NCBI GenBank assembly: GCA_003222535.1
Contig: QHWJ01000366.1
Location: forward strand, 1-34,850
From: Acidobacteriota bacterium
Lineage (GTDB): Bacteria > Acidobacteriota > Vicinamibacteria > Vicinamibacterales > CAVVIG01
Length of the DNA: 34,850 nt
Reading direction: 5' to 3'
The stretch's first letter is position 1, and each line of letters begins with the position of its first letter. Below, piece by piece: positions 11,027 to 19,013 of the stretch. Below the pieces are notes generated by a model, which was not told the origin of the DNA, did no database searches, and saw only the letters and a list, made by a program, of their open reading frames with translations. Made by a program: the position numbers and the translations under genes.

Positions 11027-11051
11027 GGAAATCAGCAATCTGCAATGATGG
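11011..11051 (+). repeat. Heptad repeat (GAARTCN type) at the start of the TamB-Omp85 gene
   Basis: Degenerate 7-bp units (CGAAATC, GAAATCA, GCAATCT, GCAATGA) run into the first codons of the large gene: its ATGATGG start lies in the last unit. The final 24 bases (11028-11051) match 21 of 24 bases of 28271-28294, the end of the repeat after the ligase gene. Confidence 0.55.
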
Positions 11052-14000
11052 AGCGGATGGTCCCGCTCATCGGGCGGCGCCGGCTCGGCTGGATTGGTGT
11101 CGGAGGCGTCGCGCTGCTGCTCGCCGCACTCGCCGTGCTGCACGCGCCGCCGGTGCGGGCGCGCGTCCTCGTCTGGGTCCTTGCGCGCTCCAGCAGCGCG
11201 GGCGTGACGGTCGGCGCCGAGCACCTCGACTACAACCTCTTCACGTTGAGCGCGCGCGTTCGCGGCCTCACGGTCGCCGTGAATGGCGCGGCCGCCCAAC
11301 CGTTCTTCTCAGCCGAAGAGGTGCGCCTCGCCGGGGGCAGGCGTGCGCTTTTCGGTCTTGTCGATTTCGCTCACGTCGAGGTCGTGCGACCCAGGGTCGT
11401 GCTGGTTCGCGACGCCTCCGGCGCGCAGAACTGGCCGGTGTCTTCGTCAGACGCTGTGCGTGCCGCGCCGATAAACGTTCACATCGAACGGCTGCAGCTG
11501 ACCGGCCTGGAAGTCTCATGGCACGACGCGCGGGCAGATTCGGCTGTTGAGGCGCACGACCTCTCGCTCGATCTCGCCGCCACTGGAGGCGAGACCGCCG
11601 GACCGCTGCACCTGGCCGGCCCGATGCGGGTCCGGTGGCGCGACCGGGAGACGTCCGTCCGCTCGCTCGACGGTCGCCTGTCGTGGAACGACCGGGACCT
11701 GTCGATCGATCGCCTCCGCGCCGACTTGCCCGAAGGCGCCCTGCGGATCGATGCCCGCGTCGACGCGCTGCTGGGAGCGCCTCGCTTCGATCTCCTCGCG
11801 ACGACCGACATCGTCCTGGCGGCCATCGGCCCCTGGTTGCGCGTCGACAGCGGGCTGAAAGGCGTGCTCCACGCTGTCGCTCACGTGACGGGTCCCTCGT
11901 CCGCGGTGCAGACGAAGCTCACGGTGGCCGCTCGCGACCTGTCGGTCGCAGGGTCGCGGCCGATCACCGTCGACGCGACGGCTCGCGTCTCGGGCGACGC
12001 CGCCGAGATCACGACGCTGACCGCGCGAGTCGCGGACGGATCGCTGACCGGACGAGGCCGGGCGTCGCTTGGCCGCGGTCCGGGCTCCATGAGCCTGAGC
12101 TGGCAGCAGCTCGATCTGGCGACGCTGCTGGAGCCCTTCCTGGGCTCATCGATGACGATCCGGCCGGCCGCTCGCCTGAACGGCTCCCTCGAGGCCAGCT
12201 GGGCCACGCCTCGCCTGGAGGCGGTCACGCTTCGCGGCGAGAGCCGGATGCGCGCCCGCGATGATGCATCCACGGCATCCGCGATCCGCAATCCGCGATC
12301 CGCAATCCGCAATCCGCGATCCGCAATTCGTTCGGACCTGCCTCTCGACGGATCCATCGCACTCGATCTTCAGGGGCGACGCTGGACGCTGCGTGCGGAT
12401 CAGACGATCGACGGCAGCGCGCGGGTGTCTGGTGAGGTTGGCGGGATCCTGGACACGCGCGACTTGTGGAGATCGACGCTCGCCGGCGCCTTTCACACCG
12501 CCGCCGTTGACCTCGCCCGTCTGTCCCGGACGCTGGGGCGGGCGGGGCTGGGCGGAATCTCATCGACTCTCGGCGGTGAGGCACAAGCCGGGGTGACGCT
12601 CACGGGAACGCTCGGTGCGGCTCGAATGGAGGGCACGGTCGACGCGCACGATGTGCAATACGCGACGCTCCGGGGCGTGGCGGTCCACACCCGTATCGCC
12701 GTCACGCGCGCGGAGGTGCAGCTCGATCAGCTCGAGGTCCGCCTGGGCGAGAACACGGCGCGTGGCCGCGCGCGGCTCGTTCCGGGCTCCGGTCGGCTTG
12801 ATGTCGAGTTCGACGCGTTGCTTGGAAATGTTGCGATGCTGTCGAGCGCGCTCCCTGCCGTGGTCGATCCTGAAGGGAGCCTCGAGATCACGGGCAACGT
12901 GTCGGGCTCATGGACGACTCCGCGAGTCGCGGCGCACCTGACGACCGCCGGCTTGACGGCGGCCGGCCAGCGCGCCGACCGCCTCGAAGGCGACGTGAGT
13001 GTCGACGGCCGGACGATCTTCATCGACCACGTGCGGATCGAAAGCGAAGGTGGCCGGCTCGACGCCCGCGGTTCGCTCGACTTGACGAATCGAGCCTACG
13101 TGGTACACGCCGCGGCCGACAGGTGGCCGCTGCGCGACTCCGGTAGCGAGCGCTCTTCCCGCCTCCGCTCGCAGGAAAATCCAGCGAGCTTCGGCGAGGC
13201 TCGCCGAAGCGCCGGAGGCGCGAAGGCGGCAGACCGTCCCGGCACGTCGTTCGCCGCACGCGTGAGCGGCGAGGTCGATGGCGACGGTACATTCGAGAAC
13301 CTTGGCGGCCGCGGTCGACTCTCATTCGCCGATGCGGTGTGGGCGGGCATCGATCTCGGACCGATCGACGCGGCCGTCTCTGCCGCCGGACGGGACGTGA
13401 CGGCAACAGTCCGCGCGCCCGATCTGGCTCTCCAGGCGACGGGCAGCGCCGGCATCGATCCCGGCGGCACTCTATCGATCCATGCCCGGTGGGAGCCTGG
13501 CGATCTCGCGAAGATCGTGAGGCGGCTCGGATGGTCTCCGCCATTTCCGGTATCGGGCTCCGCCGCGCTCGCGGTGGACCTCACCAGCAGGCGCGGCGCA
13601 GCGGACGGCGTTCAAGCCGTTTCGCCGCTGAACGTCGCCGTCGCTCTCGATGCGCTCCAACTCGACATCGACGATCAGGCTGTACGGCTCAAGCAGCCGG
13701 CGACAATCGAGTATGACGGGACCGCAGACGCCGCGAAGGTGAGCAATGTGATCCTGGGCGCCGGGAGCTCGACGCTCTCGATCGCGGGAGCGCTGGGCGG
13801 GCCGGCATCGCCCGGCCTCGCCGCGACGCTCGAGGGATCGCTCGCGGACTTCGCATTCCTCCGACGATTCGTCGAGCCAAACGCAGGGGCGACCGGGAGT
13901 CGCACCGAACTCATGCCGTCAGGCACGATCGACGTCCGCCTCAACGCGACCGGGCCCCTGCGGCGGCCCATTGTTTCCGGAGTGCTGCGGCTGGCAGACG

Positions 14001-17000
14001 GCCGCCTTCCGCTCACGGCGACTGCCTCGATCACCAATCTCTCTGCGGCGGCGCGGTACGAGGCGGGTGTGCTGATCCTCGACAGCTTCAGCGGGGCGTT
14101 GCAGGGCGCCACGCTCGTCGCGTCCGGGCGGACGCCGGCCTCGTTCGTGCTCGATGGGATTCCTGCGCGATGGCGTGAGTGGGTGCCTGCCGCCGACGGC
14201 CCCGCACTGCTCCGGGCCCAGGTGCTCTCAATCACCCCGCAGGTTGCTGCTCCGTTCATCGACGCGTCGACGCTTGAAGCCATTGGCGGTCATGTCGACC
14301 TATCGGTCGAGCTCCAGGCCGACCGCCCCGCTCTCGAAGACCTTCGTGGATCGGTGACGCTGAGCCGCGCCGAGCTTTCGATCTCCGGCGTGTCGTTCGA
14401 CCAGCAGAAGCCGACGCGTCTCCTGCTCGGCGACGGACGCCTCGACATCGCCGATTGGCTGTGGGGGACAGGCGACCATCGTGTGACGCTCACCGGCGGC
14501 GCGACGCTTGCCGCGAATCCCGTTCTGGGCATCACCGCGACGAGCACGGTCGACTTGCGCCTCCTGAGCGTCTTCACGCGCTCGGCCAGCTTCGGGGGAC
14601 GCGCCGACACCGAGCTCCGCGTCGGCGGCACGCTCGATTCGCCGACTCTCGACGGCTACATCACGTTCGGCAATGGCGAGCTGCGCTTCGTCAACCCGCG
14701 AGTCATCGTGAGCGATCTGACGGGCACCATCACGCTGGCTCGCGACGCCGTGACGTTCGAACGGATCTGGGCCGGCGTCAACGGGGGGGAGGCGGAGGTC
14801 AGCGGCTCCGTGCGCCACCGGTGGTTCACGCCGCTCGACGGCGAAGTGATGCTCCGCAGCCGCGGCAGCGCCGTCGATCTCTACGGCTTGCGCGCCGAAG
14901 CCGACTCCGACCTCACGTTTCGAATCGAGCCGCGAGGGCCGATCGTTTCCGGCACCGTCAGCCTGACGCGCAGCGCGTATCGTGAGCCGCTCTCGCTGAC
15001 GGGCGGGCTGCTTCAGGCGCTGCAGGCTTCCTCTCGCGCCATCCAGGCCAGGACGTCCACGCCACTCGATCCGCTGCGGCTCGACGTGCGCGTGCTGACA
15101 CAGGACGACCTGCTCGTCGACAACAACTATGCCCGACTCGCCGTGAGCGCCGACGTGCGGCTCGTGGGAACCGTGGGACAGCCTGGATTGACAGGGCGTG
15201 CGATGCTCGCCGAGGGCGGCCTCGCCTTTTTCAGCGGCAACCGGTACCGCCTGGGCGATCAAGGCTCGATCGACTTCAGCAACGCGAACGCGATCGAGCC
15301 GAATCTCAACATCCGGGCGGTGACGCGCGTGGGCGACACGGAGATCACACTCACTCTGAAGGGCACGCCGGCGACGCTCCAGACCTCCCTGACCTCCGAC
15401 GATCCGCAGAAATCGCAGAGCGACCTCGTATCGCTGCTCGTGACGGGCCGGACGGCCGCCGAGGTGGGCAGCGCGGGATTGGCGTCGGGGAGCGGCGAAC
15501 TGCTCGGTTATCTGTCGGGCGAGCTGGTCGGCGCCGCGGGCCGCGCCCTGGGCCTCGACACGATCCGTGTCGAGCGCGGCCAATACGATCTGCGCTTCGA
15601 CGCCGGCCTCGTCGCGACCGAGACCGATCCCGGCTCACGCCTCACGGTCGGCAAGACCCTCGGACGTAATGTACAGGTCGTCTTCTCCCAGAGCCTTCGA
15701 CAGAGCGGTGGGCTGACGTGGATTGTGAGCTACGCGCCCCGGTCGAACATCGAGGTACGGATGGTGACGCTCGACGACGGCGATCGGATCTACAACGTTC
15801 AGCACGACCTCCTGTTCGGCGCGTCGAAGCCGGCCGTGCCTCGTGTCTCCTCGCCGCCGGCGCCGGGAGTCCGTTCCATTCGGATCTCCGGCGCCGCGTC
15901 CGACGAAGCCGCCCTTCGCTCACAACTGAAGCTCGCTGGCGGCGATCGCTTCAGCTTCTTCCGCTGGCAGGACGATCGTGAGCGGCTCGAAGCATGGTAT
16001 CGGAAGCGGGACCGTCTCACCGCGCATGTGACGACGAGGCGCGTCGCGGCCGAAGTGTCCGGCGTCGCGGGTACGGAGATCTCTTACGATGTTCAGCCAG
16101 GTCCCCACACCACGATCGTCGTGGAGGGCTTCGCGTTCCCGGATGCGGTCCTTGCGGCAATGAAGGCGGCATGGACGGGCGCGGTCGTGGACGCGTTCGT
16201 GACCGAGGAAGTCGCGACCATTGCTCGCGCCGATCTGGCGGACCGCGGCTTCATCCAGGCGTCGGTCGTCGCGACGCTCGCCAGCCCCTCACCAGACGAG
16301 AAACGGCTGCAGCTCACGGTCAATGCCGGACGACGATTCGGGACCCGCCGGATCGTGTTTCGTGGCAACCGGCACGTGCCAGGCGAGCGGCTGCGCGCCG
16401 TCATCGAGGATCAGCAGCTCGACCGCGCGGTCTGGCTGGATGGCGGCCGCGCGCGCGACGCGCTCGTGACGTTCTATCGCCGGGCGGGGTACCTCAACGT
16501 CTCGGTGCAAGTGGCCGCGATCGAGATCGCGGGCGACGCCGCCACGCGGCCCATCGACGTGGACGAGGGCGAGCTGTTCCACCTCCGCGAGATCAGCATC
16601 GAGGGCCTTCGCACCGCATCTGCGGACGATGTCGGAAAGACGTCCGGGCTTTTGCGCGGTGCTCCGTTTTCACAGGAGGCCATCGATCGCGCGCGCGTCG
16701 CGATCGGCGAGAGCCTGCGCAAGGTCGGCTTCAACGCGTCCGGCGTCACGTTGCGCGCCGGGGCCGTCGCGGATCGCCCCGAAGTCGACGTCGTCATCAG
16801 CGTCGAGGAAGGATCGCAACAACGACTGCGCGACATCGTCACTTCGGGCGCCACGCGGACGAACCCCGCGCTCATCAGCCGGGCGCTCAAGCTGGAGATC
16901 GGCCAGCCGGTGAACCTTTCCGAGTGGTACCGCGCGCGACGGCGGCTCTATGAAACCGGGGCGTTCCGCCGCGTCGACATCGAGCCCGAGCCGATCTCAC

Positions 17001-18220
17001 CCGACGACGGCACCGCTAAAGCGGTGCCCTACGTGGGCGCACTCGACGGCGGCACCGCTAAAGCGGCGCCCTACGTGGCCCCACCCGACGGCGGCACCGC
17101 TCAAGCGGCGCCCTCCGCGCCGCCCTACGTGACCGAGCAGCCGATGCGCGCCAGGGTCACGCTCGAGGAGTGGGTGCCCGTTCGCCTTCGCTACGGTCTG
17201 GAGCTGAACGACCAGTCGAAGGAATCGAGCGCGGCTCGCCTGCTCAGCCTCGAGCCTGCGGCCAGTGCAGGACGTGTATTCGGCCCCGGGCTGGCAAGCG
17301 ACCTCAGCATGCGCAACCTCTTCGGCCGCGCCGTCTCGGTGGGGCTCGCGGGCCGCTACACACGCGACTTTCGTGCCGCCCGCGCCTACGCCACCGCGCC
17401 GGCGGTGTTTGGCTTCCCGATCACGTCCAACATCTTCGTCACGCGCTCGCGCGAACAGGTCGGCGGAACCGACGGCGCGCGGAGGTTCGTCACCGACAAG
17501 AGCGGCTTGACGCTCGAGCAGCGGATTCGACCCGCGGAAAAAGTGGAGGTCGCGTACAGCTACGCGTTCGAACGCAACCATACGTTCGATCTCTTCGCCG
17601 ACCCTGAGGATCCCCTGGTTCTCGACATTCCGGTCAACGTGGCGCGTCTGGCATCGGCGGCAATCGTCGACATGCGCAACGATCGAATCGATGCCACCCG
17701 CGGGTGGCTGCTCCTGTCGGATCTCGAATACTCGCCGCCGTCGCTGGGGTCGGATCTGCGATTTGTGAAGTATCTGCTCCAGCAGCGCTACTACCGGACG
17801 GCCGGCCCCGTCGTCCTGGCCACCTCCGCGCGCCTCGGTCTCGCCACGGCGTTCGGCCAGAATCTGCTTCCGCAGGAGCGCTTTTTTGCCGGCGGCGGGA
17901 ACAGCGTGCGGGGCTACGGCGAAGACGAACTGAGCCCGAACGACGCCTTCGGCCCGGTCGGCGGGAACGCGCTGGTCGTGCTGAACCTGGAAGTGCGCTT
18001 TCCGGTGTTCAAGATCGTCCGCGGCGTCAGCTTCTTCGACGCCGGGCGCGCCTTCGACACCGTCGGACACGTCGCGTTGACGGATCTCTCGTCGGGAACC
18101 GGCGCGGGCGTTCGCATCCAGACACCGATTGCGTTGATCCGCATCGACTATGGGGTGCCGCTGGACAGAGCCGTGCCGCGTCGCGCCCGGTGGTTTTTCT
18201 CGGTCGGCCAGGCGTTCTGA
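11045..18220 (+). CDS. TamB-Omp85 fusion: inner-membrane-anchored TamB bridge joined to POTRA domains and a BamA/TamA-like barrel
   Basis: 2391 aa in one frame. Residues about 10-34 form an uncleaved membrane anchor (IGVGGVALLLAALAVL). From there to about 1590 it is AsmA/TamB-like repetitive beta sequence, ending in a recognisable TamB C-terminal domain (GGLAFFSGNRYRLGDQGSI; LTVGKTLGRNVQVVFSQSL). A short linker is followed by about five POTRA-like segments (about 1607-1985; for example IVFRGNRHVPGERL and IVTSGATRTNPALI) and an Omp85 barrel (about 2045-2391) with the loop-6 motif VRGY (2288-2291, in GGGNSVRGYGED) and a terminal phenylalanine as in outer-membrane beta-signals. In other bacteria TamB (phospholipid transport, autotransporter assembly) and TamA/BamA are separate proteins; here the chain would span the whole envelope. 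In-frame repeat insertions occur at residues about 411-428, 704-727 and 1987-2023. ATG 11045 or 11048 is the start. No frameshift is seen. Confidence 0.93.
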   Translation: MMERMVPLIGRRRLGWIGVGGVALLLAALAVLHAPPVRARVLVWVLARSSSAGVTVGAEHLDYNLFTLSARVRGLTVAVNGAAAQPFFSAEEVRLAGGRRALFGLVDFAHVEVVRPRVVLVRDASGAQNWPVSSSDAVRAAPINVHIERLQLTGLEVSWHDARADSAVEAHDLSLDLAATGGETAGPLHLAGPMRVRWRDRETSVRSLDGRLSWNDRDLSIDRLRADLPEGALRIDARVDALLGAPRFDLLATTDIVLAAIGPWLRVDSGLKGVLHAVAHVTGPSSAVQTKLTVAARDLSVAGSRPITVDATARVSGDAAEITTLTARVADGSLTGRGRASLGRGPGSMSLSWQQLDLATLLEPFLGSSMTIRPAARLNGSLEASWATPRLEAVTLRGESRMRARDDASTASAIRNPRSAIRNPRSAIRSDLPLDGSIALDLQGRRWTLRADQTIDGSARVSGEVGGILDTRDLWRSTLAGAFHTAAVDLARLSRTLGRAGLGGISSTLGGEAQAGVTLTGTLGAARMEGTVDAHDVQYATLRGVAVHTRIAVTRAEVQLDQLEVRLGENTARGRARLVPGSGRLDVEFDALLGNVAMLSSALPAVVDPEGSLEITGNVSGSWTTPRVAAHLTTAGLTAAGQRADRLEGDVSVDGRTIFIDHVRIESEGGRLDARGSLDLTNRAYVVHAAADRWPLRDSGSERSSRLRSQENPASFGEARRSAGGAKAADRPGTSFAARVSGEVDGDGTFENLGGRGRLSFADAVWAGIDLGPIDAAVSAAGRDVTATVRAPDLALQATGSAGIDPGGTLSIHARWEPGDLAKIVRRLGWSPPFPVSGSAALAVDLTSRRGAADGVQAVSPLNVAVALDALQLDIDDQAVRLKQPATIEYDGTADAAKVSNVILGAGSSTLSIAGALGGPASPGLAATLEGSLADFAFLRRFVEPNAGATGSRTELMPSGTIDVRLNATGPLRRPIVSGVLRLADGRLPLTATASITNLSAAARYEAGVLILDSFSGALQGATLVASGRTPASFVLDGIPARWREWVPAADGPALLRAQVLSITPQVAAPFIDASTLEAIGGHVDLSVELQADRPALEDLRGSVTLSRAELSISGVSFDQQKPTRLLLGDGRLDIADWLWGTGDHRVTLTGGATLAANPVLGITATSTVDLRLLSVFTRSASFGGRADTELRVGGTLDSPTLDGYITFGNGELRFVNPRVIVSDLTGTITLARDAVTFERIWAGVNGGEAEVSGSVRHRWFTPLDGEVMLRSRGSAVDLYGLRAEADSDLTFRIEPRGPIVSGTVSLTRSAYREPLSLTGGLLQALQASSRAIQARTSTPLDPLRLDVRVLTQDDLLVDNNYARLAVSADVRLVGTVGQPGLTGRAMLAEGGLAFFSGNRYRLGDQGSIDFSNANAIEPNLNIRAVTRVGDTEITLTLKGTPATLQTSLTSDDPQKSQSDLVSLLVTGRTAAEVGSAGLASGSGELLGYLSGELVGAAGRALGLDTIRVERGQYDLRFDAGLVATETDPGSRLTVGKTLGRNVQVVFSQSLRQSGGLTWIVSYAPRSNIEVRMVTLDDGDRIYNVQHDLLFGASKPAVPRVSSPPAPGVRSIRISGAASDEAALRSQLKLAGGDRFSFFRWQDDRERLEAWYRKRDRLTAHVTTRRVAAEVSGVAGTEISYDVQPGPHTTIVVEGFAFPDAVLAAMKAAWTGAVVDAFVTEEVATIARADLADRGFIQASVVATLASPSPDEKRLQLTVNAGRRFGTRRIVFRGNRHVPGERLRAVIEDQQLDRAVWLDGGRARDALVTFYRRAGYLNVSVQVAAIEIAGDAATRPIDVDEGELFHLREISIEGLRTASADDVGKTSGLLRGAPFSQEAIDRARVAIGESLRKVGFNASGVTLRAGAVADRPEVDVVISVEEGSQQRLRDIVTSGATRTNPALISRALKLEIGQPVNLSEWYRARRRLYETGAFRRVDIEPEPISPDDGTAKAVPYVGALDGGTAKAAPYVAPPDGGTAQAAPSAPPYVTEQPMRARVTLEEWVPVRLRYGLELNDQSKESSAARLLSLEPAASAGRVFGPGLASDLSMRNLFGRAVSVGLAGRYTRDFRAARAYATAPAVFGFPITSNIFVTRSREQVGGTDGARRFVTDKSGLTLEQRIRPAEKVEVAYSYAFERNHTFDLFADPEDPLVLDIPVNVARLASAAIVDMRNDRIDATRGWLLLSDLEYSPPSLGSDLRFVKYLLQQRYYRTAGPVVLATSARLGLATAFGQNLLPQERFFAGGGNSVRGYGEDELSPNDAFGPVGGNALVVLNLEVRFPVFKIVRGVSFFDAGRAFDTVGHVALTDLSSGTGAGVRIQTPIALIRIDYGVPLDRAVPRRARWFFSVGQAF
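12277..12325. repeat. Heptamer array ATCCGCR x7 inside the TamB region
   Basis: Seven consecutive 7-bp units (ATCCGCG or ATCCGCA) are read in frame as an SAIRNPR peptide repeat at residues about 411-428 of the fusion protein. Three heptamers equal 21 nt, so the peptide repeats every seven residues. The segment differs from the surrounding beta-strand pattern and looks like an inserted intergenic-type repeat. Confidence 0.75.
13155..13226. repeat. Nested palindromic element inside the TamB region
   Basis: The inner perfect arms GCTTCGGCGAG (13188-13198) and CTCGCCGAAGC (13200-13210) flank a single G. The outer arms GCCTCCG (13161-13167) and CGGAGGC (13213-13219) pair as well, with CTTC/GAAG beyond. 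It encodes a charged, Ser/Arg/Gly-rich insert (SSRLRSQENPASFGEARRS) at residues about 704-727 that breaks the beta-repeat sequence. Confidence 0.6.
17009..17112. repeat. Three REP-like palindromes in frame before the Omp85 barrel
   Basis: Three copies of an 8-bp stem with a 4-nt loop: GGCACCGC-TAAA-GCGGTGCC (17009-17028), GGCACCGC/GCGGCGCC (17051-17070) and GGCACCGC/GCGGCGCC with TCAA loop (17093-17112). The first two are directly followed by CCTACGT; after the third the same CCTACGT comes only at about 17124-17130, behind an interposed CTCCGCGCCGC. They encode three DGGTAKAAPYV-like peptides (residues about 1987-2030) in the linker between the last POTRA segment and the barrel. The copy at 19024-19047 belongs to the same family. 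Confidence 0.75.
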
Positions 18221-18222
18221 TT

Positions 18223-18843
18223 CTAGTCTCTGCCGCCGAGCGTCCTCATGATCGACTGCACCTCGGGACGCTCAGGCGCCTGAGGCGCCAGCTTGAGGAA
18301 CAGGTCGAAATGCTGCGCCATGAGGTCGATCCGCTTCACCTTGGAATACGCGATGCCGGCGTAGTAGTGCGCGTACGCGAACGCGGGATCCAGCTGGGTA
18401 GCCCGATCGAAAGCGGCCGCTGCTTCGGCCATATCCCGCCGCGCGCTCAGCGCGAGACCCCGTTGGAAGTGCGCTTCGGGCAACGATTCGCCCTGGGCGA
18501 CGGCCTGGTCCGCGGCGTCCACAGCGCCTTGCGCGTTCGATCCGAGCAGCGCGATGGCCGATCGGCCGATGTGACTCCAGGGATCCTGATCGCTCAGCGC
18601 CGCGAGCTGCTGGTACGCCCCGCGCGCCTCGTCTTTGCGGGCAAGTTTCTCCTGGCTTCTGGCCACGAGATAGGTGACGCGAGACTGGTCGTCGGCCGCC
18701 GCCGCGCCGCCGGCCAGCTCGACGACCTGCTGATATTTGCCGGCATCGAACAACTTGCGCAGATCCGTCACGCTCTGAGGCGACGCCGAGGGGGCGAACG
18801 TGATGGTCAAAGCAATCGCCAGCGTCGAAGTCCATATGCTCAT
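18223..18843 (-). CDS. Secreted tetratricopeptide-repeat protein
   Basis: 206 aa with a Sec signal peptide (MSIWTSTLAIALTITFAPSA, cleavage near SASPQS). The rest is made of TPR-like helical hairpins: DLRKLFDAGKYQQVVELA, the AHFQRGLALSARRDMAEAAA unit and FAYAHYYAGIAYSKVKRIDL, followed by LFLKLAPQAPE. Such proteins are periplasmic or outer-membrane scaffolds for protein contacts. Its stop codon lies only 2 bp beyond the end of the convergent TamB-Omp85 gene. TPR partners of Omp85 machines exist (the BamD type), but the opposite orientation and lack of a lipobox give no direct support for that role here. Confidence 0.85.
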   Translation of the reverse strand: MSIWTSTLAIALTITFAPSASPQSVTDLRKLFDAGKYQQVVELAGGAAAADDQSRVTYLVARSQEKLARKDEARGAYQQLAALSDQDPWSHIGRSAIALLGSNAQGAVDAADQAVAQGESLPEAHFQRGLALSARRDMAEAAAAFDRATQLDPAFAYAHYYAGIAYSKVKRIDLMAQHFDLFLKLAPQAPERPEVQSIMRTLGGRD

Positions 18844-18881: not shown

Positions 18882-19013
18882 CACCTGACCTACGCGACCT
18901 ACCTGACCTACCCGACCTACCCGACCTACCCGACCTACCTGACCTACTTGACCCACCCGACCTACCCGACCTACCCGACCTACTTGACCTACCTGACCGA
19001 CCTGACCGACCTG
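18882..19013. repeat. 9-bp tandem repeat array (TACCYGACC), about 14.5 copies
   Basis: Fourteen 9-bp units plus a partial one, mostly TACCCGACC or TACCTGACC with variants TACTTGACC, CACCCGACC and GACCTGACC. It fills most of the gap between the TPR gene and the ExeA-like gene (both on the minus strand). There are no spacers, so it is a minisatellite, and a candidate for copy-number variation. Confidence 0.9.

Follow-up and report, generated by a model that had tools for sequence, protein, structure and literature searches.

TamB, a lipid-groove protein, and the Omp85 outer-membrane barrel are normally two proteins that come into contact in the space between the two membranes of the envelope. 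It is debated whether TamB and an Omp85 barrel work together directly, and also whether TamB's cargo is lipid, protein, or both. Here we ask whether an Acidobacteriota bacterium encodes both in one chain of 2391 residues, as an earlier note on this DNA had claimed, and if so, what such a chain might do. (Positions refer to the window, which is the whole stretch of 34,850 nucleotides that was analyzed.)

A TamB-Omp85 fusion in one reading frame

The claim of a single chain is borne out by the open frame and by the order of its Pfam domains. According to the list of open reading frames and their translations, a stop-free frame of 2391 codons with an ATG start lies on the forward strand (11045..18220, or 2391 amino acids plus the stop). 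All features of the gene given below are on this strand. Pfam finds all three of the families that were looked for in this same frame: TamB (PF04357; residues 1246-1573, at 14780..15763; E = 3.9e-32, 112.4 bits vs. a gathering cutoff of 22.4), POTRA (PF07244; four stretches from residue 1609; E = 1.1e-27, 96.9 bits vs. a cutoff of 21.3), and Omp85 (PF01103; residues 2091-2391; E = 7.4e-40, 137.9 bits vs. a cutoff of 24). The N-terminal region is DUF748/AsmA-like, but this match is weak (residues 16-181, at 11090..11587; E = 4.4e-12, under its gathering cutoff).

The Omp85 half also has the VRGY motif of Omp85 loop 6 (residues 2288-2291, at 17906..17917) and a terminal phenylalanine, and both had been claimed along with the POTRA segments and the barrel. 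With a barrel above the cutoff, POTRA domains, and VRGY, the protein has the features of the Omp85 superfamily. But unlike the two-component TAM complex, in which TamA and TamB are separate subunits, it is a single frame. No stop codon or frameshift was found at residues 1590-1610, either in the assembly or in over 50 homologs, and GC3 is even across the junction (0.80-0.83). The protein has no cysteine. The earlier note had also described a long TamB-like beta region that includes the TamB C-terminal domain; this holds, but we adjusted its limits, so that TamB ends near residue 1591 and a linker follows at about 1592-1607.

Conservation of the fusion

We then examined the relatives of this bacterium. 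First, we searched the 20 nearest genomes with the junction-spanning residues 1401-1983. Nine of them have a single fused frame (32-43% identity, mostly 2200-2400 amino acids). Second, in roughly 75 of the 193 genomes of the class, the TamB C-terminal domain and the POTRA span lie in one stop-free frame. Third, in a profile survey of the phylum, at least 81 of the 396 genomes sampled have a fused, stop-free frame (mostly of 2000-2450 amino acids). This lower bound counts only matches that cover almost the whole 587-position profile without a stop or a change of frame. The same architecture thus recurs among the relatives. A pattern search and a four-sequence alignment gave named relatives from the Vicinamibacterales and from other Acidobacteriota, all metagenome-assembled genomes. 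This affiliation puts the window in the Acidobacteriota, probably in the class Vicinamibacteria.

Could the fusion be an artifact, in which a sequencing error deleted a stop codon and so merged two neighboring genes? The genome is a draft in 450 contigs, and another of its contigs (C385) encodes a 1370-residue TamB and then a 979-residue Omp85 as two distinct genes, the stop of the first overlapping the start of the second. But the many fused homologs, whose junctions are orthologous, rule this out. They include genomes that are single contigs: one of 5.985 Mb (G247), whose fused locus (L099; 2068 amino acids) was confirmed with Pfam, and one of 4.11 Mb (G491; locus L100). Because the same fused frame is found in so many relatives, we conclude that the fusion is real, and we give the artifact almost no chance of being correct.

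The fusion is absent from many members of the same family and order, which means that the lineage can do without it. For the most heavily sampled families in the 396-genome survey (f26 and f38), no full-length fused match is among the matches listed. Our guess is that this may be why work on reference genomes missed the fusion.

Some individual loci deserve comment. Genome G119 has two different fused genes (L028 and L038), so the fused family also has paralogs. In genome G023 (L105:4263-10809), the N-terminal part of TamB may sit in another frame than the remainder, which may be a frameshift or a true break within TamB. A 4.6-kb contig with a fused gene (L068) is labelled Dehalococcoidia and is probably a mis-binned Acidobacteriota contig. 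Finally, L120 was considered as a fusion because it has one long frame, but its two domains are in different frames, so we classified it as split.

The split copies are paralogs

The genome with the fusion also encodes the split pair on C385 and, on another contig (C310), a canonical BamA (411.5 bits vs. the TIGR03303 cutoff of 297.15). The split pair was also present in all 7 of the fused-gene relatives whose second locus was examined. In the barrel tree and in the TamB tree, the fused copies cluster apart from the split copies, and the split halves carry more POTRA sequence than the fusion does, which also argues against an artifact. The split tamB-omp85 pair is therefore a paralog of the fusion, and finding separate genes in the same genome does not refute the fusion. 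Homologs encoded as two genes in close relatives had been put forward as a result that would count against it, but the orthologs are fused and the separate copies are paralogs. Because both the split pair and the canonical BamA are retained, the fusion is an additional system and not a replacement.

A single origin of the main-family fusion is possible. The concatenated tree puts the whole set of 58 main-family fusions to one side of a single branch, but the support is weak (39, or 63 in a 27-row tree), so a single origin is not demonstrated. Two loci from family f41 (L118:2080-9396 and L119:2696-9901, with Pfam domains) have a different fusion, of TamB to a longer, split-type set of POTRAs. 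L118 even passes the BamA cutoff (337.8 vs. 297). An AU test rejected the grouping of these two loci with the main family (p = 0.00026, with 27 rows of a full set of 76 that were chosen after viewing the larger tree, and with LG+G4 without a mixture model). This implies that the fused state exists in two or more separate groups, either because fusion happened more than once or because of fission.

A possible resemblance of the N-terminal half to bridge-like lipid transfer proteins

AlphaFold models give, in order, a membrane helix, a groove of about 90 strands, the C-terminal strands of TamB, a 16-residue linker, five POTRAs, and a 16-strand barrel. The N-terminal 1200 residues were modelled with 23 homologs (pLDDT 81.7, pTM 0.50). 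In this model, one membrane helix and a second helix accompany beta-strands in repeated groups, with short helices between the groups. The membrane helix (residues 12-32, at 11078..11140) is an AsmA/TamB-type anchor and is followed by an HxPxVR motif; a hydrophobicity scan of the protein finds just one strongly hydrophobic 19-mer, residues 14-32. A single N-terminal membrane helix and then a beta-rich groove is the layout of TamB proteins. The score for the TamB equivalog (NF047952) is far below its cutoff (34.3 bits vs. 825), and so is the score for the split-copy TamB on C385 (26.2 bits vs. 825).

By AlphaFold and the fold search, the long amphipathic groove (residues 54-1451, at 11204..15397) may have a continuous fold of the bridge-like lipid-transfer (chorein/Vps13) type. 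It is similar to LPD-3 (Z 10.2, rmsd 9.7, 275 aligned), the Vps13 N-terminus (Z 8.5, rmsd 5.5, 181 aligned), E. coli TamB from the TamAB complex (Z 7.6, rmsd 6.3, 193 aligned), and Atg2 (Z 7.5, rmsd 5.0, 123 aligned), although all of these Z scores are middling. Foldseek put ApoB100 and LPD-3 on top. Independently of the fold search, we tested whether the strands have two faces. Across residues 50-1500, the two-faced hydrophobicity is 2.62, compared with 1.53 in shuffles, and none of 2000 shuffles reached the observed value. By the same test, the last TamB strands lack this property. Vps13, Atg2, LPD-3/BLTP1, and the bacterial AsmA-like proteins YhdP, YdbH, and TamB share a long amphipathic beta-groove with an anchor at one end. 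We know of no bridge-like lipid transfer protein with the acceptor-membrane barrel in the same chain.

The gene for this half also contains an in-frame array of ATCCGCA heptamers (window 12277-12327), which is RNPRSAIRNPRSAIR in the protein. A 19-mer from the array (ATCCGCAATCCGCAATCCG) has 48 copies genome-wide.

The TamB tail and the linker

Next to the junction, AlphaFold and the homologs delimit a set of terminal helices and beta-strands (residues 1458-1591, at 15416..15817) that ends in YNVQHDLLF. These residues are the counterpart of the pseudosubstrate domain of E. coli TamB (PMC12800296) and end in a beta-signal-like strand. In E. coli, the pseudosubstrate strands are the end of TamB, while in the fusion the chain continues into the POTRAs and the barrel. 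Most of the main fused family has the beta-signal-like pattern Y-x-x-R-H-x-x-x-F-G-G in this last strand. The flexible linker that follows (residues 1592-1607, at 15818..15865) corresponds to 10-44 variable residues in the main fused family (median 18; 60 aligned rows), and then POTRA 1 begins. Some VIA-align matches of the C-terminal model to barrel-only structures begin at model residues 321-351, within the TamB tail. This would fit with TamB strands at the seam of the barrel, but we did not count it as evidence.

Neither the fused protein nor its homologs have a hydrophobic segment or an export signal between TamB and the POTRAs. In contrast, a signal-peptide-like start is common among split Omp85 proteins. 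Given the lack of an export signal ahead of the POTRAs, the Omp85 half appears to rely on the N-terminal helix for export, and it would reach the periplasm only behind that helix. (The Omp85 half as a separate product of an internal start was considered and is ruled out, as there is no export signal near the linker.)

Alternatively, the chain could be a precursor that is exported whole and then cut in its proline/alanine-rich linker to give an ordinary TamB-Omp85 complex. The fusion would then serve stoichiometry and export only. The linker is short, flexible, and poorly conserved, and the preceding strand retains an end that looks like a beta-signal and could suit a free C-terminus. But the aligned linkers of the fused homologs show no conserved cleavage motif. 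Also, if the two halves worked apart, then fission should be common, and none of the orthologous loci that we read is split at the junction. We consider a precursor to be improbable and prefer an intact chain.

The Omp85 half is BamA-like

In the model of the C-terminal part (pLDDT 79, pTM 0.61), AlphaFold places POTRA 1 at residues 1608-1684 (15866..16096), POTRA 2 at 1688-1760 (16106..16324), POTRA 3 at 1767-1840 (16343..16564), POTRA 4 at 1846-1921 (16580..16807), and POTRA 5, with a repeat insert, at 1925-2042 (16817..17170). The 16-strand barrel, which Pfam, AlphaFold, and the fold search all identify, occupies residues 2046-2391 (17180..18217). The best fold relatives in the fold search and Foldseek are SAM50, BamA, and TamA (Z 22-24). 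E. coli BamA matches model residues 413-1194 (Z 23.2, 671 aligned, rmsd 12.9), and P. aeruginosa TamA matches 572-1197 (Z 22.8, 518 aligned, rmsd 5.9). The fused protein misses the curated cutoffs for both BamA (TIGR03303; 196.6 bits vs. 297.15) and TamA (NF047950; 99.3 bits vs. 625).

The earlier note had named TamA or BamA as the usual partner of TamB. TamA is ruled out by the five POTRAs (TamA has three) and by the lower score for TamA than for BamA. Five POTRAs and a 16-strand barrel are the architecture of BamA, as seen in both the AlphaFold model and the fold match, and we conclude that the Omp85 half is BamA-like.

The insert in POTRA 5 is in frame (16998..17114), comprises 2.8 copies of a 42-bp unit, and forms a disordered loop. 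The unit holds the palindromic repeat GCACCGCT(A/G)AAGCGG(T/C)GCCCTACGT, which has about 135 copies in the genome, compared with 0 in the reversed control. This repeat is a REP-like element inside coding sequence.

Proposed function

Starting from the domain order, its conservation over the phylum, and the coexistence with the split pair and a canonical BamA, all of which can be read from the genomes, we propose that the fused chain serves as a bridge for lipids, which leads from the inner to the outer membrane and is covalently docked to its own BamA-like barrel. We have moderate confidence in this proposal. Helix 12-32 would be both an uncleaved export signal and an inner-membrane anchor, as in TamB and AsmA proteins, and the remainder of the chain would enter the periplasm via Sec. 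That the helix is uncleaved is suggested by the absence of a second export signal; if so, then the chain would span the whole envelope, from the inner-membrane anchor to the outer-membrane barrel. We infer that the cargo is lipid and that the C-terminal strands of TamB, just before the linker, would gate the chain's own POTRAs or barrel in cis. The tether would render this docking permanent and unimolecular. A similar role is played by the TamB tail in the hybrid barrel of E. coli TamAB, but there the two are separate proteins. The fusion keeps the parts for a hybrid barrel, but its TamB end is tied to POTRA 1. We are evenly divided as to whether the fusions make up a conserved class of lipid bridges that cross the envelope as a single chain, with the TamB tail of each gating its own barrel in cis.

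The fusion might instead work mainly in TAM-like protein assembly, with the groove and the POTRAs guiding precursors of outer-membrane proteins and with lipid transfer secondary or absent. The five POTRAs and the best score with the BamA model favor this, the groove's Z scores of 7-10 are middling, and TamB has also been tied to protein assembly. PMC11341756 describes TAM as catalyzing outer-membrane protein assembly in vitro. However, the canonical BamA (411 vs. 297 bits) and the split TamB-Omp85 pair are already encoded elsewhere in the genome, and almost all of the TamB half is amphipathic, which fits lipid tails. Overall, we think that a main role in protein assembly is unlikely, though less so than a cleaved precursor, and we favor the lipid bridge. 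The fusion probably carries a subset of the lipid or protein traffic beside the split pair.

The persistence of a covalent fusion across a phylum is a strong argument, of the "Rosetta stone" kind, that TamB and Omp85 act as a unit. The fusion also fixes their order and geometry: 10-44 residues separate the TamB tail from POTRA 1, and this constrains models of the hybrid barrel. As a single gene with 1:1 stoichiometry, it is an object for structure determination, and it poses a puzzle of biogenesis, in that the C-terminus of a chain anchored in the inner membrane would fold as an outer-membrane barrel. The fusion is a natural test case for direct handover of lipids or proteins from TamB to such a barrel. 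As for the lipid-conduit model, which it had been said to test, the fusion supports the model but does not by itself test it.

Comparison with known systems

The closest system is TamAB from E. coli and other Pseudomonadota, which shares the anchored TamB groove, the C-terminal strands, the POTRAs and Omp85 barrel, and the span across the envelope (PMC12800296). In E. coli, the last strand of TamB pairs with beta-1 of TamA inside a hybrid barrel, TamB binds PE and PG, and its groove holds lipid-like density (PMC12800296). But TamAB is two proteins, with tamA before tamB and three POTRAs in TamA, while the fusion is one chain with TamB first and five POTRAs.

In Borrelia/Borreliella, a BamA-type, five-POTRA Omp85 is combined with TamB, as in the fusion, and TamB strands are modelled as completing the BamA barrel (PMC13382580, PMC11361582). 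Unlike the fusion, those proteins are separate and non-covalent. Within the Acidobacteria, Heinz et al. 2015 described an operon of tamB and a second BamA, some with seven POTRAs (PMC4494059). These are the same two families in the same phylum, and the copy on C385 fits this description. But the genes of that operon are separate, the partner may carry seven POTRAs, and C385-type copies are apart from the fusion in trees. The text of that paper does not contain "fusion" or "fused."

Heinz and Lithgow 2014 divided Omp85/TpsB proteins into ten subfamilies and likened WD40-Omp85 to a BamA-BamB fusion (PMC4104836), which is a precedent for a partner-like domain ahead of an Omp85 barrel. The main text of PMC4104836 does not name a TamB (DUF490) domain among its ten Omp85 architectures. 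We found no report of a TamB-Omp85 fusion in the open-access literature that was searched, which included reviews and recent papers on structures, and the fusion is apparently undescribed.

Gene neighborhood

Upstream of the fused gene are a tRNA and a gene for a 2-hydroxyacid dehydrogenase. On its 3' side, a gene for a TPR protein (18223..18843, reverse strand) is convergent with it and almost touches it. This TPR family adjoins the fused gene in 24 loci, and 22 of the 24 members are downstream and convergent. The TPR protein is a possible functional partner, although it is outside any operon with the fused gene. Just beyond the TPR gene (window 18883-19013) is a 36-bp tandem repeat with 9-bp subunits (ACCTGACCT).
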